The translations under genes and the position numbers were made by a program. Positions 24,430-27,824 of a stretch of 48,841 bases of DNA are shown here, in pieces (the stretch's first letter is position 1; every line of letters starts with the position of its first letter). This DNA is from Actinomycetota bacterium (lineage in GTDB: Bacteria > Actinomycetota > Coriobacteriia > Anaerosomatales > JAENZW01): positions 1 through 48,841 of the forward strand of contig JAENZW010000006.1 in the NCBI GenBank assembly GCA_016841065.1, given 5' to 3'. Below the pieces are notes generated by a model. That model made no database searches. It worked only from the letters and a program-made list of their open reading frames with translations, and was not told the origin of the DNA.

Positions 24430-25312
24430 CGCCGGACAGCTCGTGGGCCGGTTCCTCGAAGATCTCGCGGTGCAGCGCGGCTACTCACCCAACACCATCC
24501 GCGCATACTCGATCGATCTTGCATCCTACGTTGAGTGGACTGAGAGACTCGGCATCTCTCCCTTGGTACCCACACATCGTCAGCTCCGTGGCTACCTCGG
24601 CGAGCTCGATCGGGCCCGATACTCCCGACGGACCATCGCGCGTCGCCTGTCGTCGCTTCGGGCATTCTTCGCATACCTCCTCGAGAACAACATCGTGGCC
24701 TCGAACCCCGCTTCAGTTCTATCGGCTCCGAAGATGCCGCGCCGTCTCCCGAAGGTCGCTCCACAAGACGTCCTCGACGCACTCCTTGCGGCACCAGACC
24801 CATCGACCGCCGTGGGCTTGCGGGACCGAGCCGTACTTGAACTCCTCTATGCCACCGGGATGCGCGTCAGCGAGCTCTCCGCCCTTGACACGGGGAGTCT
24901 CGACTTCACCGGGGGCTACGTTCGCGTGTTCGGAAAGGGCTCGAAGGAACGCATCCTCCCAATCCATCGGCTGGCCATCGATCGCCTCCGTGCATACTTT
25001 CGTGACGCGAGGCCTGAGATGACCCGACTGCCGACAGACGCTTTCTTCCTCTCAACGCGTGGCAATCGCCTCTCCCCGGACGCGGTCCGTCGGCTGATGC
25101 GACGGCATCTCGAGTCTGCCGGTGAGAGCCTCTCGATCTCCCCGCATGTGCTGAGGCACACCTACGCCACACATCTTCTGGAGGGCGGGGCCGACCTTCG
25201 AACAGTGCAGGAACTCCTCGGCCACGTTGCGCTGTCTACTACCCAGATTTATACTCACGTCGGCAGCAAGCGGCTGAGCGAGGTGCACAAAGGATCGCAT
25301 CCACGAGGTTGA
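24419..25312 (+). CDS. xerC: Tyrosine recombinase XerC/D family
   Basis: LLYATGMRVSELSAL, HVLRHTYATHLLEGGADLRTVQELLGHVALSTTQIYTHV; chromosomal housekeeping context. Confidence 0.9.
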   Translation: MPTDAGQLVGRFLEDLAVQRGYSPNTIRAYSIDLASYVEWTERLGISPLVPTHRQLRGYLGELDRARYSRRTIARRLSSLRAFFAYLLENNIVASNPASVLSAPKMPRRLPKVAPQDVLDALLAAPDPSTAVGLRDRAVLELLYATGMRVSELSALDTGSLDFTGGYVRVFGKGSKERILPIHRLAIDRLRAYFRDARPEMTRLPTDAFFLSTRGNRLSPDAVRRLMRRHLESAGESLSISPHVLRHTYATHLLEGGADLRTVQELLGHVALSTTQIYTHVGSKRLSEVHKGSHPRG

Positions 25313-25341
25313 GTCGCGACAGCCGGATTAGGGGCGCATCC

Positions 25342-26124
25342 ATGAAGCAAGACCCTCGGCCGGATCTATCCGACCTCTGGGCTTCGTTCAAACAAGACGG
25401 AGATCAGACGGCGCGGGAACAACTCATCGTGAACTACTCGCCGCTGGTCAAGTACGTCGCCGGTCGATTGTCTACGGGCCTCCCACAGACCGTCGACACG
25501 GCCGATCTCATCAGCTACGGCATCTTCGGCCTTATCGATGCCATCGAGAAGTTCGACCTCGAGCGCGGTATCAAGTTCGAGACCTACGCGATCGCGCGAA
25601 TCAAGGGCGCGATCATCGACGAACTTCGCGCGATGGACTGGGTGCCGCGCTCGGTCCGAGCACGCGCGCGCCAGGTCGAGCAGGCCTACGTTGCTCTGGA
25701 AACACGGAACAAACGCGTCCCGAATGACGCTGAAGTAGCCAAAGAACTCGGCATCACCAAGAAGGACCTCCAGGCCATCTTCACGAAACTGTCGTACACA
25801 TCCGTGGTCTCATTCGAAGAGCTCTGGGTCGGCGGAGATCGGGATGATCGCCCCAATGTGATGGGAAGCATCGCGGACGAGACTGCCGAAGACCCCGTAG
25901 CCGTATTCGAGTCTGCCGAAGTGAAGGACATTCTCGCAGGGGCCATCGAGCGTTTGCCAGAGCGGGAGCGTATAGTTATCGCTCTGTACTACTACGAGGG
26001 CCTAACGCTCAAAGAGATTGGGCAGGTGCTCGGGGTGACGGAGTCTCGCGTGAGTCAGCTGCACACCAAGGCGGTGCTTCGACTCAGGGCCAGACTCCAC
26101 GCAGCTCAGGGCTTCGCCAGCTAA
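25342..26124 (+). CDS. whiG: WhiG/FliA-type RNA polymerase sigma factor
   Basis: LVKYVAGRLSTGLP, DLISYGIFGLIDAIEKFDLERGIKFETYAIARIKGAIIDELRAMDWVPRSVR; ATG at 25342. Confidence 0.88.
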   Translation: MKQDPRPDLSDLWASFKQDGDQTAREQLIVNYSPLVKYVAGRLSTGLPQTVDTADLISYGIFGLIDAIEKFDLERGIKFETYAIARIKGAIIDELRAMDWVPRSVRARARQVEQAYVALETRNKRVPNDAEVAKELGITKKDLQAIFTKLSYTSVVSFEELWVGGDRDDRPNVMGSIADETAEDPVAVFESAEVKDILAGAIERLPERERIVIALYYYEGLTLKEIGQVLGVTESRVSQLHTKAVLRLRARLHAAQGFAS

Positions 26125-26149
26125 ACATAGGCCACCGGGAGGAGCACCT

Positions 26150-26734
26150 ATGTCACCCACTATCCTCGTCGTCGAGGACACCGAGCTTCTTCAGACAATC
26201 TACGCCGACAAACTCAAGCAGGATGGGTACCAGGTGCTTACGGCCGGTGACGGACTCGCGGCCCTCGGGCATCTTCGAGGCAACACCGTCGACCTGATCC
26301 TCCTCGACCTCATAATGCCGAGAATGAGCGGGCTCGAAGCCCTCGAAGCGATCAAGGCCGATCCAAGAACGCGCGACATCCCGGTGCTCATTCTCAGCAA
26401 CCTCGGTCAGGAGTCTGATGTCCAGCGAGGGCTGGAGATGGGTGCCGTCGACTACCTCATCAAGAACGAGGCGAAGCCTGCGGATGTCGCCGAGAAGATC
26501 CGGCTGACCTTGGAGCACATGAGCGGACTCCAGCACGAGTCCTCCGCATATCGCCTGGTCGTGAAGGATCGTGAGGCCGATGCTGACCGATTCATCCAGG
26601 ATGTCGGTCTCGCAAAACGCTTCTGGTGTCCCGCATGCGAGGTGGAGCTCAACCTCGAAATGCTCCCAAACCCGAAGCGCCCAGGATGGTATGACACGCA
26701 CGTCATCTGTCCGATGTGCGGCAAGGAATACTGA
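26150..26734 (+). CDS. Receiver-domain response regulator with C-terminal zinc-ribbon-like module
   Basis: ILVVEDTELLQTIYADKL, LILLDLIMPRMSG, C-term CPACEVELNLEM...HVICPMCGKEY; no HTH output domain seen. Confidence 0.85.
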   Translation: MSPTILVVEDTELLQTIYADKLKQDGYQVLTAGDGLAALGHLRGNTVDLILLDLIMPRMSGLEALEAIKADPRTRDIPVLILSNLGQESDVQRGLEMGAVDYLIKNEAKPADVAEKIRLTLEHMSGLQHESSAYRLVVKDREADADRFIQDVGLAKRFWCPACEVELNLEMLPNPKRPGWYDTHVICPMCGKEY

Positions 26735-26754
26735 TCCCGGGACTCCGCCCGGGA
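26735..26754 (+). terminator. GC-rich hairpin after the response regulator (terminator-like, no U-tract)
   Basis: tcccggg/actccg/cccggga, starting just after the stop codon. Confidence 0.4.
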
Positions 26755-26912: not shown

Positions 26913-27824
26913 ATGTCCGTAGTCTCTATGAAGAGCCTGCTTGAAGCAGGTGTCCACTTCGGTCATCAGACTCGTAGGTGGAACCCCAAGATGCGTCCGT
27001 ATATCTTCACGGAACGCAACGGGATCTACATCATCGATCTGCAGCGCACTCTGCGCGAGATCGAGGCCGCGCACAACTTCGTCCGCGACGCAGCCGCCAG
27101 AGGCGGTCAGGTACTGTTCGTCGGCACGAAGAAGCAGGCTCAGGAGCCTATCCAGAACGAGGCGGCTCGCTGTGGTATGCCGTACGTCAACCACCGCTGG
27201 CTCGGTGGCATGCTGACGAACTTCGTCACCATCCGCACTCGTCTCGACCGCATCAACGAGATCGAAGCGATGGACGAGAACGGCACTATGTCGGCCCTGC
27301 CGAAGAAGGAGCAGCTCCAGCTCCACAAACAGCACACGAAGCTCATGAGCAGTCTCTCCGGTGTCCGCGAAATGCGCGATGTGCCCGCGGCAGTGTTCAT
27401 CGTGGACACAAAGCGCGAGGCAATTGCCATCGCAGAGGCTCGCCGTCTCAAGATCCCGATCATCGGTCTGGTCGACACGAACGCCGACCCGGACGAGGTG
27501 GACTACGTCATTCCCGGTAACGACGACGCGATTCGTTCGGTGTCGCTCATGGCCCACGTCATCGCCGATGCCGTTATTCAGGGTCGCGCGGCCGCTGAGC
27601 TGCCCGTACTCGTGACGCCCACCGAGACCACTCCTCCGAAGGTTGTCGCGGCCCTCCCGACCGAATCCGCTCCTCAGGACGCGGTCGCGGATGTTCCGGA
27701 TGCTTCGACTGAGACCGTCCAGGAGGTCGCGCCTCCCGATACCGAGGCCGCGCCCGAAGTCGTTGCCGAGGCCGCGCCTGAGGCTGTAGCCGAAGCTCCG
27801 TCGGAGGAACCGGCCGCCAACTAG
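26913..27824 (+). CDS. rpsB: Ribosomal protein S2 with Pro/Glu/Ala-rich C-terminal tail
   Basis: [70 protein letters not shown] at 26913. Confidence 0.95.

Follow-up and report, generated by a model that had tools for sequence, protein, structure and literature searches.

The window, by which we mean the whole stretch of DNA analysed (48,841 nucleotides), comes from a genome whose order we infer to be Anaerosomatales (OPB41), within the Coriobacteriia. It carries the gene order xerC-whiG-RR-rpsB-tsf-pyrH-frr, in which RR denotes an ATG-started open reading frame at 26150-26734 on the forward strand, encoding a 194-residue response regulator that lies 25 nt behind whiG and 178 nt ahead of rpsB and combines a receiver (REC) domain with a zinc-ribbon tail. 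The features of the locus are as follows.

25309..26124, + strand: whiG, a sigma-28 family sigma factor directly upstream of the regulator (NF004935 WhiG equivalog, 379.8 bits, cut-off 343)
26137..26144, + strand: ribosome-binding site GGGAGGAG of the response regulator, inside the 25-nt whiG-RR gap (sequence reading)
26150..26734, + strand: REC-zinc-ribbon response regulator, 194 aa (open reading frame, domain matches, orthologues)
26162..26479, + strand: receiver domain with full phosphorylation site, E9, D10, D53, S83 and K105 (PF00072, 1.4e-24; invariant columns; Foldseek)
26525..26620, + strand: variable linker, then a conserved strand-helix segment (YRLVVKDREADADRFIQDVGLAKR), between receiver and ribbon (alignments; model E134-137, H144-152)
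26621..26731, + strand: C-terminal C4 zinc ribbon, CPxC-23-CPxC, with a beta-hairpin, E168-173 and E181-186 (alignment, model, sub-threshold zinc-ribbon matches)
26735..26754, + strand: 7-bp hairpin TCCCGGG-ACTCCG-CCCGGGA right after the regulator stop codon, a possible operon end with no T-run (sequence reading)
26913..27824, + strand: rpsB, a neighbour and probably a separate unit (PF00318, 329 bits; ATG with AGGAGG)

We compared this neighbourhood across the window's own genome and 60 relatives (one from the same genus, the rest from the same order), mostly fragmented metagenome assemblies, and 60 genomes could be scored for presence of the gene, G016 being left out as its assembly lacks rpsB. 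Orthologues of the regulator were found directly behind whiG in 44 of the 60 scorable genomes; in all 44 carriers the gene is co-oriented with whiG and begins a median of 25 nt past its end (range 12-79), within a row that reads comM-dprA-trmFO-xerC-whiG-RR-rpsB-tsf-pyrH across the order. The placement between whiG and rpsB given in the initial annotation is borne out, as is the lack of an adjacent kinase, no histidine kinase having been found in the regulator's neighbourhood, and the linkage to whiG holds in every carrier across the order. Within the order, 59 of the 61 genomes encode a WhiG above the NF004935 cut-off; a sample of 41 other Coriobacteriia yielded none. In the non-carriers, whiG and rpsB adjoin with no gene between them, the one exception being G026 (L146:3272-4780; G026:C91), where the regulator is absent and an open reading frame of cell-wall-binding-repeat type occupies the space.

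Because of the 178-nt gap, the 7-bp hairpin and the closing up of whiG and rpsB after loss of the regulator, rpsB appears to form a unit of its own downstream; the hairpin was not called as a terminator in a dedicated search, and an Rfam search of the window returned no leader. A translation-related primary role via rpsB was rejected on the basis of the same gap and hairpin, together with the observation that losses leave both whiG and rpsB intact, and the functional partner of the regulator is more likely to be found on the whiG side of the locus, with which the gene is probably co-transcribed. RpsB itself carries a long acidic C-terminal extension rich in Ala, Pro and Glu.

Architecture of the regulator

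The receiver occupies the first ~125 residues of the regulator and is matched by PF00072 over residues 5-110 at 86.8 bits, well past the curated cut-off of 30.2, with the acid pair, the phospho-accepting aspartate, the S/T position and the lysine of the family all present. Structural comparison of the whole regulator by Foldseek returned receivers only, among them those of RpaA, RR468 and PhoB (E about 1e-11), and the AlphaFold2 models have a mean pLDDT of 88 for the whole regulator and 80 for the tail alone. Profile searches of the part outside the receiver gave no match to HTH, HD-GYP or GGDEF models, nor to other models of DNA-binding or enzymatic outputs. Judged by its sequence, the regulator is a genuine member of the receiver family with an uncatalogued output module.

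The tail is a separately conserved unit of 65-70 residues that ends in a predicted C4 zinc ribbon of the form CPxC-23-CPxC, recognised by two conserved CxxC knuckles and an intervening beta-hairpin. The knuckles, C160-PA-C163 and C187-PM-C190, are 23 residues apart, the second ending four residues before the C-terminus, and the four cysteines would together coordinate zinc. Ahead of them, residues ~132-157 form a conserved strand and helix (FxLxVRDREADADxFI...L.RRFW) that make up one conserved unit with the ribbon, and the true linker is found near residues 126-133, where orthologues differ in length. The tail is basic just ahead of the first knuckle (L-x-R-R-F-W-C) and the knuckle region is acidic (CEVELxLEL). 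In profile searches, Pfam included, the tail of the window protein reached the cut-off of no zinc-ribbon family, and its assignment to a named zinc-ribbon family was rejected on these grounds; sub-threshold hits went to many such families, and relatives of the protein gave weak E-values scattered over many generic ribbons. A Foldseek search of the tail against the PDB returned nothing significant (best E 0.15), the nearest, non-significant structural matches including TFIIS/RPB9-type ribbons.

These results largely uphold the initial annotation, which had described a full receiver domain, a protein with no visible HTH, HD-GYP or GGDEF domain, CPAC and CPMC knuckles at the C-terminus and an unusual architecture: the receiver is significant and its active-site residues are invariant, no such output model matches the remainder, the knuckles are where they were placed, and the tail reaches the cut-off of no zinc-ribbon family. 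Its reading of the intervening segment as a linker leading to the knuckles requires revision, since the term undersells the conserved strand and helix. It had also considered that the CxxC pairs might prove unconserved, or the C-terminal segment a known REC-associated domain; all four cysteines are invariant in 43 orthologues, and PF18551, the model for the receiver-associated TackOD1 domain, was not among the matches to the regulator up to E = 1.

Conservation and loss across the order

Full-length orthologues number 43, the 44th (G013; L073, G013:C31:16000-28000) having a frameshifted tail in which the ribbon is legible in another frame, reflecting either a sequencing error or recent decay. 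All four cysteines are invariant in the 43 intact orthologues, as are E9, D10, D53, P57, N84-L85-G86, K105 and N106, position 83 is always serine (22) or threonine (21), and the 23-residue spacing of the knuckles is kept in all but one (42/43), a degree of conservation beyond chance. In a midpoint-rooted tree of XerC, WhiG, TrmFO and RpsB, built with no outgroup and with support of 30-70 at some nodes, the genomes lacking the gene fall into about seven groups nested among those that have it. As these absences are nested and the location is identical in every carrier, the simplest reading suggests an ancestral gene present at the base of the order and lost about seven times; no relocation of the gene was seen among the genomes of the order.

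Beyond the order, a scan of 300 genomes of the class found the tail confined to the order, bar one 24-residue match that resembles chance, and a scan of GTDB species genomes by patterns such as R[FL]WCPACE, which would miss divergent relatives, gave 36 loci, mostly from Coriobacteriia or Actinobacteria MAGs. A phylum-wide sample contained one REC-ribbon relative outside the class, a protein of about 195 residues in G579 (L329:1498-2166; G579:C32), encoded between acs and a polysaccharide deacetylase, away from whiG. Because of this relative, the predicted REC-zinc-ribbon architecture is rare yet not strictly bound to the order.

WhiG-type promoters and the type IV pilus

Profile searches for the Flagellin_N domain were negative in all 61 genomes of the order (control genomes positive), and flagellar regulation was rejected on these grounds. 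The pattern TAAA-N14-16-GCCGATA, the canonical site for sigma-28, occurs 96 times in the 61 genomes, against 14 occurrences of the reversed pattern, and the single exact site in the window's own genome (G000:C211:3792-3817; L163:1501-1526) precedes the gene for a type IV pilin by 77 nt, in the interval from pilC to pilD, the latter encoding a prepilin peptidase. The own-genome count of exact sites is by itself no better than control, and it is the cross-genome comparison that carries the weight. There, a prepilin-like open reading frame follows 25 of the 94 sites examined, and a WhiG/sigma-28-like site that matches 9 or more of the 11 consensus bases of TAAA-N15/16-GCCGATA is present in 49 of the 53 genomes with a testable region upstream of the major pilin (pilin loci L174-L293), at least 10 of 11 being reached in 43. 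These sites lie 40-87 nt before the start codon and are found with or without the regulator, and among 399 control regions upstream of eight genes, five reach 9/11 and none reaches 10/11. Exact sites were also seen ahead of pseudopilins and of some genes for secreted or cytochrome-like proteins.

In Rubrobacter, WhiG promoters with the same consensus are found in a type IV pilus cluster at mapped transcription starts, and WhiG controls type IV pili there through RsiG (PMC8325347); cultured Anaerosomatales are non-motile and bear pili-like appendages (PMC9686372). We conclude that the WhiG encoded next to the regulator very probably directs transcription of the major type IV pilin gene from these predicted promoters, which would extend the Rubrobacter WhiG-to-pilus circuit to the Anaerosomatales. 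The statement in the initial annotation that the architecture has no obvious output is not sustained, given the contrast between 49/53 pilin regions and 5/399 controls and the Rubrobacter precedent. No WhiG-type site was found before whiG or the regulator, and autoregulation by WhiG was rejected accordingly.

Genome content adds modestly to the link between the regulator and this circuit. PilM is encoded by 41 of the 44 carriers and 7 of the 16 non-carriers (Fisher p about 1e-4, shared ancestry ignored), a co-occurrence that draws on a small number of independent events and that gaps in the assemblies may have influenced; pilins also occur in some PilM-negative genomes, and for pilin the contrast is weaker than for PilM (42/44 carriers versus 12/16 non-carriers, p 0.04). 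Non-carriers keep whiG, and in 10 of the 11 whose pilin could be tested a site of 9/11 consensus bases or better is retained. The idea that loss of the regulator goes with loss of the pilin promoter was therefore rejected, and because pilin-bearing non-carriers mostly retain the WhiG-type promoter, the regulator would be a modulator of the circuit and is not a required part of it. In coevolution tests, a correlation of the ribbon with WhiG (partial r 0.28, p 0.004) had no counterpart for XerC, TrmFO or RpsB, in a setting where control gene pairs reach up to 0.54. WhiG was not set apart from the neighbouring genes by distance-tree correlation or by lost-constraint tests, the latter giving no extra lost-constraint sites in the WhiG of genomes lacking the regulator.

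Models for regulator function

The main argument linking the regulator to this circuit is its position, co-oriented with and 25 nt behind whiG and kept there since the base of the order. We tentatively favour a model, short of probable in our estimate, where the regulator is a phospho-switch acting on WhiG, or on the WhiG-RNA polymerase holoenzyme, and thereby tunes pilin transcription. D53 would be phosphorylated by an orphan histidine kinase or by the CheA of a chemosensory cluster, phosphorylation would alter the presentation or exposure of the zinc-ribbon tail, and the tail, attaching to WhiG or the holoenzyme as a protein-interaction module, would raise or lower transcription at WhiG promoters, the best-supported target being the major type IV pilin; phosphorylation of D53 and direct binding to WhiG are putative steps, and the effect may be of either sign. 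The cluster in question comprises CheW-, CheB-, CheA- and CheC-like open reading frames in the window's own genome (L165, G000:C82:5500-11500), named by eye from sequence, and may serve pili in a genome that encodes no flagellin. In a more specific form, which we regard as possible though on the doubtful side, the tail is a sigma-factor-binding output module, so that a two-component regulator would act directly on a flagellar-type sigma factor for type IV pili, replacing or adding to the RsiG/c-di-GMP switch.

The chemosensory cluster and the co-occurrence with PilM could also be accommodated by a post-transcriptional adaptor in the manner of CheY or PilG, phosphorylated by CheA and docking through its ribbon on a pilus motor or pole protein, with the whiG operon as mere regulon packaging, and receiver proteins with the TackOD1 module are reported from archaeal type IV pilus loci (PMC5847659). 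Such an adaptor is nonetheless unlikely, as the regulator never lies in a pilus or che cluster among the loci examined, is always behind whiG within the order, and is missing from several pilus-bearing genomes. We consider it less likely again that the ribbon binds nucleic acid, which would place the protein in a new, DNA- or RNA-binding class of response regulators: the basic stretch before the first knuckle and the resemblance, albeit non-significant, to TFIIS/RPB9-type ribbons would fit such a role, which is opposed by the single 37-residue C4 ribbon with its acidic knuckle region, the lack of a helical DNA reader, and the absence of any significant fold match or DNA-binding family over cut-off.

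A regulator with no functional relation to WhiG or pili, staying put for want of a promoter of its own and doing another job, would fit the position of the G579 relative away from whiG, the losses that leave whiG undisturbed, and the coevolution tests in which WhiG was not set apart from its neighbours. Retention of one fixed location from the base of the order onwards, through about seven losses and with no relocation, and the enrichment in PilM-positive genomes make this explanation improbable in our view. The genetic context of the regulator makes the question of its output testable, as it offers a fixed whiG partner, target promoters that can be recognised, relatives in culture that bear pili, and genomes that serve as natural loss mutants. 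Kept behind whiG throughout this order of anaerobes, in which WhiG probably switches on pili, the regulator is a promising candidate for a pilus-control switch of a new kind.

Response regulators with a zinc-ribbon output have barely been described, and TackOD1 is the sole precedent that we found in the literature examined. Present in archaea and some bacteria, TackOD1 proteins (PF18551) likewise join a receiver to a cysteine-rich, zinc-ribbon-like output; their function is obscure, and thaumarchaea are reported to encode them within type IV pilus loci (PMC5847659). The TackOD1 module nevertheless spans about 200 residues with 11 conserved cysteines (five CXXC and an HXXC) (PMC5847659), against about 65 residues and four cysteines in the tail studied here, and membership is excluded by cysteine count, size and HMM. 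TackOD1 is thus the closest precedent in architecture, and RsiG is the closest in function: the latter, like the regulator as proposed, is a small regulator of WhiG, and in Rubrobacter it switches type IV pili under the same promoter consensus (PMC8325347). RsiG differs in being a c-di-GMP-armed anti-sigma factor of WhiG, a coiled coil with the motif E(X)3S(X)2R(X)3Q(X)3D, which is absent from the receiver-plus-ribbon regulator and from 1.56 Mb of examined locus sequence.

AsfR of Actinoplanes is similarly an orphan receiver that lacks both a DNA-binding domain and a neighbouring kinase; it differs in being a receiver-only protein of 138 residues with no zinc ribbon (PMC11960193). The actinobacteria concerned use FliA/WhiG-type sigma factors for their pili and flagella (PMC8325347). 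The proposed logic also recalls PhyR, a phosphorylated receiver that sets sigma activity via an anti-sigma factor (PMC5964349). PhyR has a sigma-like domain, whereas the regulator has none, its matches being confined to the receiver and weak zinc-ribbon hits. Zinc anti-sigma (ZAS) factors are characterised by an H-x3-C-x2-C zinc motif. The regulator departs from this motif, its conserved pattern being C-x2-C-x23-C-x2-C.
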